Source: Picocystis sp. L7
Lineage: Eukaryota; Chlorophyta; Picocystophyceae; Picocystales; Picocystaceae
Direction: 5' to 3'
Length of the DNA stretch: 64,000 nucleotides
NCBI GenBank assembly: GCA_020975725.1
Contig: QXJR01000028.1
Coordinates: 124,001 to 188,000, forward strand
Shown here one piece after another: positions 4,755-34,704 of the stretch (positions are counted from its first letter, which is position 1; each line of letters opens with the position of its first letter). Position numbers and translations under genes: made by a program. The notes below the pieces were generated by a model that saw nothing but the letters and a program-made list of their open reading frames with translations, ran no database searches and had not been told where the DNA came from.

Positions 4755-6239
4755 TCAAAAGCAGCCATCGATCCCACACACGTCTGAATAATCTTCTTGA
4801 GTGGCAGGAATAGACCACCTGCCCAGATGACTATGGTAGTTGATGGACCGCAACACCCCTTTCCCTTTCAGTGCGCCATCCGGAAAGTCCATGATGGTGA
4901 CTCCACCAGTCTCAATACGAAACAGGGAGATTGCGTCCGGTCCTAGGCCCAAGCAGTGGCACACAAAGGCTGCGTGGGTTGCTCCATGCCCTACCACCAG
5001 AACATTTTTCCCCTCGCCCTTGTCCAGCAGCTTCAAAGTTTCGTGCCACGCAGTTTTCGTCCTCTGCCAAAAATCATCCATGGATTCACCTCCCTCCGGC
5101 CACTCCTGACCCCGAACTGTGGCCATAGGCCTGCCTGCCCAATCTCCAAAGTCCAGGTCGGCAAGCTCGTCGTATTCCAATATTGGAGGGGTTTGATGGC
5201 CACCCAGTGGCTGTAGCAAGGCAATTTCTCTAGCAGTTTCAACCGCTCTGTACAAAGGCGAGCTCATTATGGTATCGATTTCAAGATCGAGCAGGAACTC
5301 TGCAGTCTTAACGGCATGAAGCCTCCCAAGCACATTGCATCGCTCGTCTTCCTTGCCCGCAATCAGGCCATCTTCGCTACGATCCGTACCACCATGGCGA
5401 ACAAAGACCAGCCTGGCTCTGGCTTTCCTGCCCGCTCCGGATCCAGCAAATGGTGGATCCGGCGACTGGTTGAGGCGGTCAAGAGTGACCCTGGTGCCCC
5501 CCTCATTGCTATCAGCACTGTTGTTGGCAGCGAAGTCGAGCACAGAAACGGCGGCGTTACTTTGCAGCATCCTTCTAAAGTAGTTTGGATCAAGGCCCAA
5601 TGCAGTGGCCAGCAGCGCCTGATTGACTGCATTGTGGGCCACCACTAGGCAGGAACGGTAGTCTTTGCTTTCATCAAGAACATCCTGCCATGCCAGAGAA
5701 GCCCTGTACCAGAGCTCTCGGACTGGATAATGTTCATCGATGCAGAAGTTGGCGGCGTCTTTCTGCCACTTGACAAACTCGTCTCCGAATGCGGCCTTCC
5801 CTTCCTCTTTGAGAAGGCCTTGGAAGGAGTACAAGTCCACTTCGCGCAACGAAGGCAAGATGTGTTTTGGCTGTTCTCTCTCTCCCCAAATGATGTCTGC
5901 CGTTTCCGAAGCTCGCTGGAGCGGACTGCAGAAGAGTGCATCGAACCGATCCTCTCGCAACATCTCGGAAGAGGTCTGTGCCTGTTCTTTTCCCTTCTTC
6001 GTGAGCTTCGCGAAATCGCTGCATCCTTGGATGCGTCCTTCCGCATTCCACGTGCTTTGTCCGTGTCGCACCAGGACCACGCGCCTCGGCGTCGACAGCG
6101 TCGGAAGCGGACAGGGAGGGAGGCTTTGGCGATCACCCAGGGACGTGAACTCGTCTTCTCCACGCCACTTCCATTCCTTTGCCGCGCGGCTGGTCGCATG
6201 CGCGCGTGCGACGCTGCAGTGGGTCAGGATTGGCGCCAT
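4755..6239 (-). CDS. Two-domain histidine phosphatase, 2-carboxy-D-arabinitol-1-phosphatase-like
   Basis: The protein has 494 aa and two RHG phosphatase domains. Domain 1 begins RRVVLVRHGQSTWN (catalytic His ~59), contains EIDLYSFQG-like and YPVRELW segments, and has LVVAHNAVNQALLAT. Domain 2 begins RLVFVRHGGTD and keeps VVGHGATHAAF. The tail HLGRWSIP...CGIDGCF closely matches plant CA1Pase, which destroys the Rubisco inhibitor 2-carboxyarabinitol 1-phosphate in the stroma (recalled homology). Residues 1-50 resemble a plastid transit peptide. In Arabidopsis CA1Pase, as I recall it, domain 2 has lost the RHG; here both domains look active. The ATG at 6239 is preferred over an upstream GTG. Substrate in this alga is unproven. 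Confidence 0.88.
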   Translation of the reverse strand: MAPILTHCSVARAHATSRAAKEWKWRGEDEFTSLGDRQSLPPCPLPTLSTPRRVVLVRHGQSTWNAEGRIQGCSDFAKLTKKGKEQAQTSSEMLREDRFDALFCSPLQRASETADIIWGEREQPKHILPSLREVDLYSFQGLLKEEGKAAFGDEFVKWQKDAANFCIDEHYPVRELWYRASLAWQDVLDESKDYRSCLVVAHNAVNQALLATALGLDPNYFRRMLQSNAAVSVLDFAANNSADSNEGGTRVTLDRLNQSPDPPFAGSGAGRKARARLVFVRHGGTDRSEDGLIAGKEDERCNVLGRLHAVKTAEFLLDLEIDTIMSSPLYRAVETAREIALLQPLGGHQTPPILEYDELADLDFGDWAGRPMATVRGQEWPEGGESMDDFWQRTKTAWHETLKLLDKGEGKNVLVVGHGATHAAFVCHCLGLGPDAISLFRIETGGVTIMDFPDGALKGKGVLRSINYHSHLGRWSIPATQEDYSDVCGIDGCF

Positions 6240-7013
6240 GGCCGACACGTCCTTTAGGAGAGTCCAACCTTCCCCTCATCCGAAACTCCACATCCTCTTC
6301 CCGGATGACCCTCCCCCTGCACACACTTGCACATGCACATACACGTGCACCCACGCATGCATGCTGGGATGGAACAACACCAACTCATCGAGTATCCATG
6401 AGTGGTTTTACCAATCATCCACACTGGAAACGATGGAAGGTGGATGAAGGGGTGGGTACTGAGAGCAGGAGAAGGAATGCCGATGGAATCGGAAGCAAGA
6501 GGGAGCTCGAACTTGCGAATGCTCATGAGATTTAAGACAAAATGCAGCATCAGTATCTCTAGATGTCACAATGACAACGAGTTTTGGTCTTCGTTTTCTG
6601 ACTGCTCACAATGACGCCAGCTCGAATGTAGTCGGTCAAGCAGAGAATAAAGGATGGTTCCCCACACAGCAATAAGCTGCTGAAACTACCCTCCACCGCC
6701 ATCACCAGTAATCGTCAGGGGTTGATCGTTGTACGTGTGCAAACGAGTTGCCTTTGCGTAAAAGGGGGTATCAGTGAAGGGAGAAAGTCCTCCTTTAGAT
6801 TTCCAGGCAAGAATGAATGTTCCTTCAACAGTCCCAGAAGCCTACCTCAAAACGAAGGCACTCATGCCTTGATGACAATCCACCGGCGTGCATTCAAGGG
6901 GCGATTGCTATGCTTGGCCATGGTGGGAAGATCGATTGCTCCAAGCGAACAAAGGTTGTTGAGGCAGTCCTAGGCCTAGCAGGACACGGAACCTTGTCCA
7001 TACGCGTGTCCTT
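6240..7013. other. Intergenic region with alternating TG/CA tract
   Basis: No supported gene. A low-complexity run rich in TGCACA/CACACG at about 6321-6362 creates spurious short ORFs. An AATAAA at about 6645 has no obvious + strand gene upstream. The zinc-finger gene ends at 7014. Confidence 0.4.
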
Positions 7014-8015: not shown

Positions 8016-8951
8016 CGTTTCCTTCTTGTTTCGATATCACACGAACGACGGGAACGCTTTGGTTTCAACGGCGTCGCACGCGCGGAAGGAGGCTTCGGAC
8101 GCGGCTGCGTCACCACCCTTTTTGGTGCCCGTTCCCTTTCGCCTCCTTTTCCCCACCCTTTCGAAAGGGGGTTCGGGAAGTTTCGAAAGGGAAATCATGC
8201 GGGTCTGATCGGGACCGAACGGGATGGCCTCCGAAACCGACACCCCGAGGGCAACGTCTCGGACGGGTCGGGTTAGGGTTTAGGGTGCGGGAGGGTGGCC
8301 TGCCTCGTCGAGTTGCGAGACAGCGGGATCGGCCTCCACGGTGGATGGGTGCTTGAGACGCGATCGGAACGCACCTTGGCGATGGCCATCGGAATGGTTC
8401 CTGCCTGGCGATCGAAGGGACGATGCAGGTGGCCTTGCGAGAGCCACCAAGTCGGTCCAGGATTGGGAAAGGGCAGCTACTGCTAGGACCACGGGGTCGG
8501 TTGGGAAACGGACGTCCAACGTCCATCGATGCTGGAGGAGCCTTGTCAACGCGTGGGGGATGCTTCGGGGGGTTTCCGAGGACGAGGTCCTTCCCCTTCG
8601 GACACGTGCGTCGGATGGATCCAATCCTGTCGTCGGAAGCGACCATGCGCCGTGTCGGCGCACCGTCCAATCCCCATCGCCCATATCCGTTCCTACAAGA
8701 ACGTCGGGTGGGTTCGGCTTCACGTGCATCCGATCTCCACCTTGTGCAAGGTACGGAACCGGTCCCCGAACCAGATCCTGGACGTCCGTTTCGTGACGTG
8801 TCGATCCACGAACCGACCCTCACCCCGGTCCGATCGGGTTCGGCGGTCCATTCGAACCCGAAGGAAACCCGGGATCGATCGAGGAATGTTGGGAAACCGA
8901 ACCGGATCCAACCGAACCGGTACGATCCGATGGAGATCAGTCCGACACGTG
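8016..8951. promoter_or_regulatory. Divergent upstream region with telo-box and CCTTTCGAAAGG
   Basis: Long overlapping ORFs on both strands show no protein-like character. Visible elements are CCCTTTCGAAAGGGG near 8157-8171 with a second TTTCGAAAGGG 20 bp on, the telomere-like TTAGGGTTTAGGG at 8273-8285, and a cluster of CGAACCG/GGTTCGG motifs at about 8810-8930. Confidence 0.45.
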
Positions 8952-9692
8952 ATGGGCGTCTTGGCGCGTATGTCCATGCTCTCCGAGCGGACGCTCACGG
9001 GAGAAAGACTCCCGAAACTGTCGGTGGGAAACAAGAGTTTGGTCCCTAGGGATGCGGCACAAGGAACCAAACGCGTGGTCCTCGTGCGACACGGACAGAG
9101 CACGTGGAACCAGGACAGCCGTGTGCAGGGAGACACCGACGAATCCGTCCTGACTGCAGACGGAATCGCACAGGCGAAGAGATGCAAAAACGCGCTGAAG
9201 AATGTTCAGTTTGACGTCTGCTTCTCCAGTCCCATATCTAGGGCCAGGACAACCGCCGAAATCCTGTGGGGAGAAAGAGAGGAACCCATCGTCTACGTGG
9301 AAGAACTCAAAGAGATGCATCTGCCCAAGATTCAAGGGTTGCTGAACGCAGAGGCCGCGCAAGTGCATCCTACGGAATACAGAACGTGGAGGGAAGAGCC
9401 GCATCGATTCCATGTGGATGGTAGGTATCCCGTTGTAGAGCTCTGGGGGAGATCGCTCACCGCGTGGGAGACCATCCTCTCCCAGCCCGGTAGCAGCTGC
9501 TTGGTCGTGTCCCACAAATCTGTTTTGAGATCCCTGGTACTCACCGCAATGGGACTGAGCCCAAGCAGCTTCCGTTCCATAGAAATACACAATGGGGGGA
9601 TGTGCACCTTCGAAGTAAACCAACACGGCGAGCCTACACTGGTGGCGATGAATTCAACTGCTCACATGCATGCCGATGGCGTTTATTACTGA
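8952..9692 (+). CDS. Single-domain histidine phosphatase, plastid type
   Basis: The protein has 246 aa. RVVLVRHGQSTWN carries the phospho-accepting His (~47); FSSPISRARTTAEILWGERE, RYPVVELWGRSLTAW and LVVSHKSVLRSL complete an intact phosphoglycerate-mutase-like catalytic set. Many segments parallel domain 1 of the two-domain CA1Pase-like protein 3 kb away, so the two are paralogues. Residues 1-38 resemble a plastid transit peptide. The frame is open up to 8529, but that stretch reads like promoter DNA, so the ATG at 8952 is chosen. Substrate unknown; a plastid sugar-phosphate phosphatase is the best inference. It converges on alpha-tubulin with 82 bp between stops. Confidence 0.82.
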   Translation: MGVLARMSMLSERTLTGERLPKLSVGNKSLVPRDAAQGTKRVVLVRHGQSTWNQDSRVQGDTDESVLTADGIAQAKRCKNALKNVQFDVCFSSPISRARTTAEILWGEREEPIVYVEELKEMHLPKIQGLLNAEAAQVHPTEYRTWREEPHRFHVDGRYPVVELWGRSLTAWETILSQPGSSCLVVSHKSVLRSLVLTAMGLSPSSFRSIEIHNGGMCTFEVNQHGEPTLVAMNSTAHMHADGVYY

Positions 9693-29436: not shown

Positions 29437-31965
29437 TCATCCCAGCAAACCCATCACTTCCTCCAGCTGTGTAGAGGATAGCATGGATATCTCTTTTTTG
29501 TCCGATTCGCTGTAATCTGATTCCAGGAGTTGTGCGATCTGTGCGTGTGCTTCTGCAATGTTCAACCGGACTGGCTGAAACAGCACTGCCCTTGTGCTTG
29601 CATTGGGGAGGTAGATGGTGGTCAACTTGACAACGCCCTCCAGCTCAGTCGTAAGAGCCTCTTTTGAGCGGGCCACAGCCAAGGATAGTTTCTCCACAGA
29701 AGCAAATGCTTGCTCACGTAATGGTTTCTCTCGAGTCGATCCGGCGGTCCGGATAGCGCTTACCTTTGTGACAAAGGACAGGATCGGCTCTACCATTTGC
29801 TTTGTGATTGTCATGATGTATGCTTCGCATACAGTCTTGAGCTGGTCTTCTAGTTCTCTTTTCGAATCCTTCTGTCTTTCTTTCACCGTAGGTGCACCCT
29901 TCGACATAAGTTGAAAAACCGCATTGCTTGCGCTCAGCGTAAACATACTGATTTCTCCATTCAAGATGCGAAGGAGGTGATCTCTCATGTGAGAGAAGTC
30001 AAGCTCCTTGTCCACAAAGGAGAAGCTTGCCTCAAATGGCGCAAGCTGCTCGCGCAAAATGAGCAAATGTCTTATTTGAAAAAGAAGACCATCCATCATA
30101 CTAGCAGTCTTGGAGATTTTTCGACTGGCCACGCCAATGGACAAGGTACAAGCTTCCACTGCTTCCTGCGCCAAGCCAGCAAAGATTTCGCTACCCAACG
30201 AATAGTATATTTTAGGAATGAACTCAACTGTCAGCAACACTGCTGGGTAAACGCTGTCTTCCCTGCCATCTTCCTCGATTTCCTCTGAAGCTTCTTCAGC
30301 TTCCGACGAACCAACACCATTCCCCACTTGCTGCTCCTCGCTACTGCTCGCTTCCTGGCTTTTCCCGTAAAGTATGCCTGGGTAATCCAACTCGCCAGGA
30401 GATGGCACAAACCCACCTATCTCTTCCTTGATATAAGCTTGTGCGCGATAGGTAAGTCTCTCCTGAATATCGCTGAGAGTAGCCTCCACCAAAGGCCTCA
30501 AACAGCCAATTGGCTTGCCCCTTCTATAAATTTGATCATCGAGTATTTCTCCCTTCACGATCTCAACCAGCTCACACAGCGTATCCACATCATTTACGTG
30601 GATGAGCAGCGGACGAGCAACGTCATACATGATGGTAAACACTGGTTCAATCAGAGGCGACAAGTTGTTGGGATCATCCGCCGATCTTGGAAAGAAATGC
30701 TGGAAAAGCTGGAATTCTAGCTGACAGACCTGAACCAAATAGGAGAATCCAGAACGTAGGAGGGGTGGAAGGTACCTTCCTTCTGCAAAATGCCAGATCC
30801 TCTCTTCTACCGTGGGGCGGATCAGAGTCAGTCTTGTGTCGAAGTAATAAGACAGGCAGTCTGACACGAGCTTGGAGTATTCTGGCAGGTTGATCCTGTC
30901 CTCCATCTCCTCCATGGTGGACTTCAGTTCTGGTGCGGAGGCTTTGAATCTCACGTAAAGAAGCGAGGTCTCGGATCCATCTGCTGCAGCAAGGTTCCCG
31001 CTCTTTATGAGTCCTTCGAGGACTTGTTGTTTGGCCCGTTTCAGGCCGTTTGTGACGTAAGAGCGGACGGAGCTCAGTGCACGGAATTGGAGGTGTCTGA
31101 ACTTCGCAACGTAAGCTGCCGAGTCCGTGTATTGCGGATGATCTCCGATGAAGGTAATGCACTCATCGAGTTTCTTGACCATGGACAGGAAAGAATCCGA
31201 CTCGACATCAACGTTGGTAGACTGAAGCTTGTTGGCCACCTGCTCCAGGTCATCGAAGTATTCCAGCTTATTTTTGATGGCTTGCGCGAACTCCGCGAGC
31301 CTGCCCCGGTCCTTGACCAGGTTCTCACACGCGTTGTGTATCCCTCGTATGGTCTCTGTCACGTATTTATGCTGTTTTTCGAGTTCCTCCAGCCTTTGCT
31401 TGGCGCTCTTCTCGTGGTCCAGGATGTCGTCACAGGACTTCCTGTACCCTTGGAGGGTGCTGGCGTATTCCTTGTACTTTTCTTCCGTTTCGCTGGTCCT
31501 GGCAGCTTCCAGTTCGCTGAACCAACGATAGAACTGCTGGGCGTTGTGCAGTGCGTTTCCTTTGCTTATCTTTCCATCCCAGTCTTCCCCTCTGGTTTCG
31601 TCCCTACCCGCTGCACTCGCCACCTCTTCTTCTTCCTCGTCCTCCTGCCTTTCTTCGTCCCTCACCTGTCCTCGATCCGAACCAAGGCGTCAGCGTCGTT
31701 CGTCCGACCCATCGCTCGATCGAGAGTGCGACGGAATCCGCGTGCTTCGCTCGCCACGCACGTGTTTCGGCACGGGACGCGCGCCAGCGGTCCGTCCGAG
31801 CTTCTGCAGGGTGTTCAGGACCTCTTCCTGGAGGGGTGCTTCCTTTTCCCACGTGTGCACCACGCTGTATCCCCTCGAGGCCGCCTCTGGAAGCGCAGAA
31901 ACGCGCGCCATCGCGTGCCAATCCCGCCGGTTTCCGATCGAAAATGAACCATGGGAATCGGCCAT
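29437..31965 (-). CDS. COG3: Conserved oligomeric Golgi complex subunit 3, two exons
   Basis: COG3 (Sec34) is a core tethering subunit for retrograde Golgi traffic. The large exon 29437-31665 opens in frame without an ATG and contains AQQFYRWFSELE, a coiled coil to ~residue 200 and FIGDHPQYTDSA.YVAKFR. Exon 1 is at 31762-31965 (68 aa): its MARVSALPEAASRGY, EAPLQEEVLNTL and RPVPK align with the animal COG3 N-terminus. The intron 31666-31761 (96 bp) runs GTGCGT to CAG, phase 0, with CTGAC 23 nt before the end. The product is 810 aa, near the human 828. The ATG is 17 bp from the edge of a large inverted repeat that supplies its promoter. Confidence 0.9.
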
Positions 31966-31981
31966 CGCCCCCTCCCCCCCC

Positions 31982-32527
31982 GGGACGTCCTTAAATCGAC
32001 GAGAATAGGGGGGCCTTCCATCACGGTCCTTGTCGATGGGTCGGTCGAATAAAACAAGCCCCACGGACGATTTCCTGCCCAGGAAACGAGGATCCGTCGA
32101 GGATTCATCGATATCTTCGATCGAGATACCGACACGTTTCCCGTCATCTTCGCCCCCCTCCGACGATCGAACCCATCGAACGCGCATTTGCCCAAGTCCG
32201 AACGACCTGAGGAAAATCGGATGCAGGAAAAGCGACCACGGTAGGAATCACCACCACCCCTCCCTTCCCACAGCCCAGGGACTCAGGCAAAGGGGACCGA
32301 ACGTGTCGACCTGCGCATGTGCGACCGTCTCGACTGCTTCGATCCGACGCTACGAACGAAGCCGATCGAGACGGTCGCACACGTGCACGGGAAGATCGAG
32401 AGGAGATCGTCGGGATCGGAAACGAACGAATCGGGTGGGAAAAATGCAGTGGTGCACGTGACGAAACAGCGAACGAAGCTCCGACACCGTCGCAAACCAT
32501 CCACCGAACGGGACGGTGCGTCGAACA
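31982..32527 (+). repeat. Inverted repeat, left arm
   Basis: The outer end begins GGGACGTCCTTAAATCG 17 bp upstream of the COG3 ATG and includes ATCGATATCTTCGATCGAGAT, a relative of the window's GAGATCTCGAT promoter motif. Confidence 0.93.
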
Positions 32528-32995
32528 GTGGCGCAGGCCTGAGCGTCTGCAACCTTGCGAAACGTGTCGAATAGACGGCAAACCATACCTTCAGTCGCGT
32601 GCCATTCGGTTGTGGCAAACCGGACTCGCTTGCTTCGAAGTCGAAGCTGCTGTCGCTATCGACGTCGATGGTTCCGAACCCAATCCTTCTCCAGCACCTG
32701 CTGTCGACGCAGGCCCAGACGAGCAACAAACACCCGCGAACCACCGTTCGATCAAAAATTACGTGCGTTGATCACATCCGCGAGAAAGATCGGATCGACC
32801 GGATGCGTGGTTGGTCGCACGCACCGTCTCTGCATTCGACAGGCGGAGCGTCCACCGTGCGGGTCGACGAGGTGGCGATGGCGTGCCACCGTGCCCTACT
32901 TGAAGCGAACGAATTTGCTCGGATTCGCACCGTGCCGGTTCTAGATGGGGTTCTTCCAAGCAGCGAGGCTTCGAGCGCTGTCTGGAGGGATCGAC
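32528..32995. other. Unique spacer of the inverted repeat
   Basis: A 468 bp single-copy stretch. ORFs run across it into both arms (for example 32599-33240 on +, 32283-32744 on -), but none has recognisable domains and their codon pattern is repeat-driven. Confidence 0.5.
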
Positions 32996-33541
32996 TGTTC
33001 GACGCACCGTCCCGTTCGGTGGACGGTTTGCGACGGTGTCGGAGCTTCGTTCGCTGTTTCGTCTCGTGCACCACTGCATTTTTCCCACCCGATTCGTTCG
33101 TTTCCGATCCCGACGATCTCCTCTCGATATTCCCGTGCACGTGTGCGACCGTCTCGATCGGCTTCGTTCGTGACTTCGGATCGAAGCAGTCGAGACGGTC
33201 GCACATGCGCAGGTCGACACGTTCGGTCCCCTTTGCCTGAGTCCCTGGGCTGTGGGAAGGGAGGGGTGGTGGTGATTCCTACCGTGGTCGCTTTTCCTGC
33301 ATCCGATTTTCCTCAGGTCGTTCGGACTTGGGCAAATGCGCGTTCGATGGGTTCGATCGTCGGAGGGGGGCGAAGATGACGGGAAACGTGTCGGTATCTC
33401 GATCGAAGATATCGATGAATCCTCGACGGATCCTCGTTTCCTGGGCAGGAAATCGTCCGTGGGGCTTGTTTTATTCGACCGACCCATCGACAAGGACCGT
33501 GATGGAAGGCCCCCCTATTCTCGTCGATTTAAGGACGTCCC
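32996..33541 (-). repeat. Inverted repeat, right arm
   Basis: The reverse-complement copy of the left arm. Its outer end faces rightward toward BolA, whose coding strand is opposite, so a promoter copied here would drive BolA antisense RNA. Confidence 0.93.
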
Positions 33542-33672
33542 CCCCCCCGACCCTGGGTGAACCCCTTCGTAAACATCGCCTCGACGGGCCTCGGCCCTCC
33601 TCCCCCGGTCGAGGGGGGACCGAGGGGGGTGCGGGGAGGAAAGGGACGCGTGGCGTCGAGGCAGGAAGGGAG

Positions 33673-33678
33673 TTTATT
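33673..33678 (-). terminator. AATAAA overlapping the BolA stop codon
   Basis: On the minus strand CAA TAA ACT contains AATAAA across the stop. Confidence 0.6.
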
Positions 33679-34024
33679 GCACGTGGGCGGGTTCGATTTC
33701 GTCAGGCGTGTAGGCTTGGACCGCCAGTGCGTGGAGCCCGCTTTGGAACTCGCGATCGAGGAGCTTGTACACCATGCGATGGCGTTGCACCAGCGTCCTC
33801 CCCCCGAAAGCCTCCGAAACCACCTCCACGCGGAAGTGGGTCTCTGCGTCCGGTCGACCGGTCGGATTCCCTGCGTGTCCGGCGTGCTTGTGCGATTCGT
33901 CTTCCACGCGGAGCTTCGTGGGATGCAGCGCCTCCTGCAGCTTGCTGACGATGGCCCGACGCACGGGACGCTCTTCCATCGTTCGCGCGGCTGCGCTCCA
34001 CCACCGGATCGAACGCAGAGCCAT
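33674..34024 (-). CDS. BolA-family protein, probably organellar
   Basis: The protein has 116 aa. MEERPVRRAIVSKLQEALHPTKLRVEDESHKHAGH begins the BolA class II KH-like fold; THFRVEVVSEAFGGRTLVQRHRMVYKLL and HALAVQAYTPDE complete it, with the conserved His residues. BolA proteins partner monothiol glutaredoxins to carry or deliver Fe-S clusters in cytosol, mitochondria or plastids. The 15 residues before MEERP (MALRSIRWWSAAART) form a short basic presequence, so the start at 34024 is chosen and an organellar site is inferred. The gene starts 65 bp from the divergent DUF4258 gene. Confidence 0.92.
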   Translation of the reverse strand: MALRSIRWWSAAARTMEERPVRRAIVSKLQEALHPTKLRVEDESHKHAGHAGNPTGRPDAETHFRVEVVSEAFGGRTLVQRHRMVYKLLDREFQSGLHALAVQAYTPDEIEPAHVQ

Positions 34025-34089
34025 CCGAACCTCGACCGTTGTGACGCGAGCTGGCGCACCACCCTCAGGGAGATACGGAACCTTGTCCC

Positions 34090-34704
34090 ATGCAAACCTC
34101 CATCCCACCCGGTTCGAAGGGACGGTTGACCGGGAAGGAGTTCCCGTTCGAAAGGGAAGGAAGACCCATCCGTCCCTGGGAGATCCCCTGGGGAAGGAGA
34201 TCGATGGGAAGGGGATCGCGTCGGTCCGTCGCGTCGCGGAATCGACACGTGCCGAGGAGGAAAAAGCCGAAAGAAAGAGGTGGAGAGGACGAAAAGCATC
34301 CGAAGAAGAGCAAGAAAGAAGAGAGGAAAGGATGGAAGCTTGCCGCCGTGGCCGGTGGGCTCCTGACCGGGCTACTAGGAGCAGTGCTGCACACGGTGGT
34401 GGCGAGGAAGAAACTCGTCACCAGGAGCAGAAACATTGGAGATAGACTCCTGGGAAAACCCATCGTGGAGACCGAACATGCCACCTGCAGGATGGGATGC
34501 AGGTTCATCAACAAGCAAGATGTGCGAAAGGCACTCGAGAAAGGAACGATCAACGACAAGAAAAGCGACTTGAAAGCCGCACCTTATCCGAAGATCGCCT
34601 TCGACGACGGAAGAGTGAGAGCCGTCTTCTCCGAGTATCCCAAAGAAACCAGAGTGGTCACCGTCATCGATACAGAAACGGAACACATCTGCCCGCCGTG
34701 CTGA
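34090..34704 (+). CDS. DUF4258 protein with a membrane segment
   Basis: The protein has 204 aa if it starts at 34090; an in-frame ATG at 34204 (MGRGSRRSVASRNRH) is equally likely and leaves a basic, Lys-rich N-terminus. Residues ~85-108 (LAAVAGGLLTGLLGAVLHTVV) look like one hydrophobic segment. The C-terminal domain has HATCRMGCRFINKQDVRKAL, GTINDKKSDLKAAPYPKIAFDDGRVRAVFS and VTVIDTETEHICPPC, the DUF4258 pattern with paired Cys. Function is unknown; in bacteria the domain occurs in small RelE-like or plant-style stand-alone proteins. Organelle membrane attachment is inferred. Confidence 0.78.
   Translation: MQTSIPPGSKGRLTGKEFPFEREGRPIRPWEIPWGRRSMGRGSRRSVASRNRHVPRRKKPKERGGEDEKHPKKSKKEERKGWKLAAVAGGLLTGLLGAVLHTVVARKKLVTRSRNIGDRLLGKPIVETEHATCRMGCRFINKQDVRKALEKGTINDKKSDLKAAPYPKIAFDDGRVRAVFSEYPKETRVVTVIDTETEHICPPC

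Follow-up and report, generated by a model that had tools for sequence, protein, structure and literature searches.

A near-perfect inverted repeat between BolA-like and COG3 genes interpreted as a probable non-autonomous Mutator-like foldback transposon

Gene context of the locus

The 64,000-nucleotide stretch of DNA that was analysed, referred to here as the window, codes for eukaryotic proteins on both strands. It contains 53 ORFs of at least 260 amino acids, many of them overlapping, and the Pfam survey covered 30 ORFs, one of which lies in the inverted repeat described below. Matches were obtained to COG3 (conserved oligomeric Golgi complex subunit 3), BolA-like, ZIP transporter, poly(A) polymerase, Kelch, BRCT and SAP/Exo_endo_phos nuclease families, as well as to tubulin, a UBE2O-like enzyme, UbiA, DUF1995, tRNA-guanine transglycosylase and Rsm22; a bacterial-type carbamoyl-phosphate synthase large chain carries 87 residues ahead of its first Pfam domain. 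For the DUF1995 and COG3 proteins, no match was found in the PDB. Many of the matched frames span long domains unbroken, and the host genome appears to be gene-dense and intron-poor and to belong to a eukaryote with a plastid.

The inverted repeat sits between the BolA-like and COG3 genes, both of which are encoded on the minus strand. The BolA-like ORF (33674–34108, with its stop end at 33674; Pfam BolA, E = 7.2e-32) lies upstream of the repeat in the direction of transcription. On the opposite strand, an ORF with a DUF4258 domain (34090–34704, plus; Pfam E = 2.3e-10) has its start within the 5′ end of the BolA-like ORF.

The COG3 gene, downstream of the repeat, was assigned to 29437–31965 on the basis of its Pfam matches and of a proposed first exon and small intron. 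Its main frame (29437–31665) matches both COG3_N (E = 9.2e-41) and COG3_C (E = 1.4e-80), and the start listed for this frame is a GTG. An in-frame segment further upstream opens with an ATG at 31965 (MADSHGSFSIGNRRDWHAMARVSALPEAASRGYSVVHTWEKEAPL..., translated as MADSHGSF at its beginning); a single in-frame TGA separates it from the main frame. We infer that this segment is the N-terminus of COG3, which would place the start codon at 31965–31963; the TGA within 31665–31965 would then probably belong to a small intron or, otherwise, mark a damaged 5′ part of the gene. The proposed intron has many candidate positions: 39 of the GT/AG pairs tried take out the TGA and keep the COG3 frame open, among them one giving a 96-nt intron with the donor GTGCGT. 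Downstream of the proposed start there is another in-frame Met. The left end of the element delimited below is 17 bp upstream of this proposed start codon, so that transcription of COG3 may begin inside the left arm.

Architecture and boundaries of the inverted repeat

A repeat search of the window placed the two arms at 31982–32529 and 32994–33541, each 548 nt long, 99% complementary and separated by 464 nt. Direct comparison of the arms revealed six mismatches in 548 positions and no gaps; numbered inward from 0 at the outermost base, the mismatches occupy positions 366, 368, 369, 412, 477 and 517, and the outer 366 bp of both arms are identical. A first-pass annotation of this DNA had described a near-perfect repeat with six ungapped mismatches and about 360 identical outer base pairs, a description upheld by this comparison, as the structure is real and its arms have hardly diverged. 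The coordinates given there also stand, while the arm and spacer lengths of 546 and 468 bp were off by 2–4 bp.

A 548-nt repeat is far beyond chance: elsewhere in the window no exact inverted match exceeds 17 bp, and the longest in each of 20 mononucleotide shuffles of the window measured 14–24 bp. Apart from this repeat, the window contains a single inverted pair of at least 40 nt (6016–6083 and 9072–9139; 68 nt, 78%) and no direct-repeat family of that length. The 68-nt pair touches two histidine-phosphatase ORFs (4755–6248 on the minus strand and 8529–9692 on the plus strand), which are probably paralogous coding sequence. No second copy of the long repeat was detected within the window, the best other blastn match having an E value of 0.29. 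The 20-base element end had no exact match in viral and prokaryotic contig collections, and a distant DNA search with the whole repeat against phage sequences returned no match; these null results say little about a eukaryotic element, because the collections are viral or prokaryotic.

Trimming one base from each arm yields an element of 1,558 bp (31983–33540), delimited by its inverted ends and by a flanking direct repeat. Its two 547-bp ends, the left terminal inverted repeat (TIR) at 31983–32529 (plus) and the right one at 32994–33540 (minus), both begin with GGACGTCCTTAAATCGACGA and enclose a unique spacer of 464 bp (32530–32993), in which protein-family scans recognized no coding content. 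Both flanks of the trimmed element read CCCCCCCCG, an exact 9-bp direct repeat with its left copy at 31974–31982 and its right copy at 33541–33549. The one-base trim was picked from seven end offsets as the one giving the longest direct repeat, which measures 9 bp at this trim, 7 bp at the untrimmed ends and 0–6 bp at the other offsets. In a control using random position pairs of the same spacing, with the repeat region left out, the same seven offsets allowed and the other C-runs of the window included, a direct repeat of at least 9 bp arose in 32 of 300,000 pairs and one of at least 7 bp in 319 of 300,000; a variant with a spacing of 1,560, in which the repeat region was retained, gave at least 9 bp in 27 of 300,000 pairs. 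Eight of the nine bases of the duplication are C, making it less specific than a mixed 9-mer, and its final G fixes the register, making the direct repeat more than a homopolymer. The plus strand of the window holds seven C-runs and three G-runs of at least 7 nt, and the flanks of the element are two of these C-runs.

At both boundaries, inverted symmetry reaches as far as the ends of the element and gives way to direct symmetry beyond them. A direct repeat at both ends is the expected mark of transposition, and this pattern fits insertion by a transposase at a staggered cut.

Each arm harbours a nested imperfect palindrome, located by the repeat search at 32312–32387 in the left arm, where stems of 22 nt that are 91% complementary are separated by 32 nt; the counterpart in the right arm lies at 33136–33211. 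The left palindrome region (32305–32395) folds as DNA at −31.1 kcal/mol (z = −5.26), a value equalled by none of 200 shuffles, and may represent a putative subterminal binding or hairpin motif. Two weak Rfam matches to mir-1247 fall on the palindromes at 26 bits, against the 70 required, and were rejected as reflecting hairpin shape and not family membership; nowhere in the window did an Rfam match attain its gathering score.

All six arm mismatches lie within the inner 182 of the 548 positions (p = 0.0013, or p = 0.012 if the three changes at 32348–32351 are counted as one event, both values to be doubled because the outer side was picked post hoc). With only four to six events, this distribution gives a hint of conversion between the outer parts of the arms or of constraint on them. 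Three of the six differences are crowded into a 4-bp stretch of the nested palindrome (32348–32351 in the left arm versus 33172–33175 in the right). By eye, this cluster betters the local hairpin of the right arm, which is consistent with a hairpin-templated change of the kind produced by a quasi-palindrome template switch.

Coding content and relationship to known elements

The repeat contains 21 stop-to-stop frames of at least 60 amino acids; Pfam scans at E values of up to 5 covered 17 of them, and the other four are arm-to-arm duplicates with the same translation. No match attained a family cut-off: the best, to GlyL_C (E = 0.024; 15.2 bits against a cut-off of 21), and those to DUF4640 (E = 0.18) and DUF7902 (E = 0.21), likewise below their cut-offs, were taken as chance. 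NCBIfam gave no match for the eight of the 21 frames searched, nor did Pfam for the longest frame in a shortened form. This longest frame extends over 251 codons from stop to stop (32762–33514, minus strand), a length found in five of 500 mononucleotide-shuffled repeats. As it is longer than in most shuffles, a lost coding history of the repeat is possible; mononucleotide shuffling controls poorly for biased DNA, and little weight is therefore placed on this frame.

No transposase was found among the scanned ORFs, including the frames of the element. The statement of the first-pass annotation that no transposase or other element protein is visible is thus borne out for family-level Pfam and NCBIfam matches in the scanned frames. 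Its further claim, that a simple transposon is not supported, does not survive. Non-autonomous DNA transposons are by definition devoid of transposase, so that the absence of the enzyme is no argument against a transposon, and a perfect 9-bp direct repeat is present at both ends.

The inverted repeat is probably a foldback/MITE-type DNA transposon, Mutator-like and non-autonomous, with 547-bp TIRs and a short non-coding spacer. Its placement in the Mutator superfamily is suggested by comparison with described elements. Mutator-like elements (MULEs) are characterized by TIRs longer than 100 bp and target-site duplications (TSDs) of 8–10 bp (PMC5225508), while those of plants are described as having TSDs of 9–11 bp, TIRs typically of 100–500 bp and promoters within the TIRs (PMC3310237). 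The arms of the present element, 547 bp with six mismatches, are well over 100 bp and slightly above the range typical of Mutator-like TIRs (PMC3310237), and the perfect 9-bp CCCCCCCCG falls within the span of 8–11 bp, with some doubt attached to it by its low-complexity sequence. The likeness to the plant elements lies in the long TIRs and in the TSD of 9–11 bp; as described, the plant TIRs can carry promoters, whereas a promoter role in the element analysed here is putative (PMC3310237).

A close parallel is offered by MuTAnT, a foldback MULE family of Medicago truncatula with GGGG ends, which is described as inserting in simple repeats near genes, with most of its TSDs hidden by those repeats (PMC4486113). 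The two share near-identical long foldback TIRs, G-rich outer ends, 9-nt TSDs, a MITE-like organization and insertion in simple-sequence runs close to genes, represented here by the C-run (PMC4486113). In contrast, MuTAnT targets (TA)n, the TIRs of the element first described measure 144 bp as opposed to 547 bp, and the family is reported to comprise 218 copies with a putative autonomous member, compared with the single copy within the window (PMC4486113).

The Tm1 Mutator/Foldback elements of root-knot nematodes also have foldback-like TIRs, and some members are described as lacking coding potential (PMC3169594). Their TSDs are of 8–10 bp, mostly 9 bp, in 45 of 53 elements, in agreement with the 9 bp found here (PMC3169594). 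Unlike the present element, in which the ends are symmetric and no tandem array is seen, Tm1 is reported to have TIRs built of tandem repeats of approximately 14 bp and asymmetric end motifs (PMC3169594). TRF likewise detected no tandem array in the repeat. Assignment as a foldback element with modular TIRs was considered and rejected, the arm containing two direct-repeat families of 13–15 nt with two copies each, more than 200 nt apart.

Elements of the hAT type have an 8-bp TSD and short TIRs. An 8-bp TSD with asymmetric ends is possible in the C-run; the 9-bp repeat at symmetric ends and the 547-bp TIRs speak against a hAT element. Among the papers found on algal Mutator elements and on poly-C targeting, none seemed from its listing to cover an element such as this one, which is most likely one more instance of an already known element type.

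According to the proposed mechanism, the Mutator-like element would be mobilized in trans: a transposase provided by another part of the genome would recognize both of its ends, and the 1,558-bp element would insert into the C-run between BolA and COG3, duplicating the 9 bp CCCCCCCCG. Without the element, the gap between BolA and COG3 measures 150 bp, or 141 bp after subtraction of one copy of the duplication, which is inside the range of the other non-overlapping gaps (71–2,207 bp) in a hand list of 21 ORFs and 20 gaps, one of them an overlap. The insertion is likely to be recent, or the arms would have been kept alike by gene conversion.

An improbable alternative to transposition is an inverted duplication, in which a single-copy stretch would have been copied in reverse beside itself by template switching or fold-back repair, with no need for a transposase. 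Such an event is in keeping with the presence of one visible copy and no visible transposase within the window, and the C-runs could have served as microhomology; moreover, if the cluster at 32348–32351 is hairpin-templated, as it looks by eye, it would show local template switching. What this process does not predict is the 9-bp direct repeat at which the symmetry stops on either side; misassembly does not predict it either.

A role as a hairpin-RNA locus, with a transcript running from end to end and forming approximately 547 bp of double-stranded RNA that is cut into small RNAs, is very improbable as the primary explanation, and such a locus may itself have begun as a transposon. Judging from the sequence, RNA transcribed through both arms would form a nearly perfect duplex, and Porphyridium purpureum, a unicellular red alga, is reported to have small RNAs (PMC4981961). 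Against this stand the reported loss of DCL1 and AGO1 in Cyanidiophyceae (PMC9812998), the description of Cyanidioschyzon merolae as being without RNA interference machinery (PMC11376382), and the Rfam result given above, in which the mir-1247 matches fall far short of the gathering score.

Although misassembly is known to produce long inverted repeats, a fold-back artefact is scarcely credible at this locus because of the six differences between the arms, the unique 464-bp spacer and the flanking target duplication.

Insertion site and implications for COG3

If the assignment to a non-autonomous Mutator-like transposon is right, a cut-and-paste system with very long ends is, or recently was, active in a compact, apparently intron-poor genome, and the exact ends of the element provide a handle on the remaining family members and on their transposase. 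The element itself is ordinary; what is unusual is its position, almost on top of the putative start codon of a housekeeping gene. With the left end so close to this codon, COG3 would now be transcribed from within the left arm, and the insertion offers a natural test of transposon ends as promoters in this host.

A broader proposal is that the element represents a foldback Mutator-like family of the host lineage that targets C-runs in the 5′ leaders of genes and whose long ends act as outward promoters, here driving COG3. We regard this extension as rather unlikely; if true, the housekeeping gene COG3 would be driven by a transposon end. Gene conversion may also keep the arms alike because of a functional outer part.

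Two further C-runs, at 1712–1723 (12 nt) and 1955–1965 (11 nt), lie approximately 230 bp apart ahead of a G-patch gene. They were considered as marks of a second element, a candidate that was set aside as no convincing terminal inverted repeat was seen there. Between these two runs, the motif CCTCTGCG / CGCAGAGG can be recognized by eye four times.
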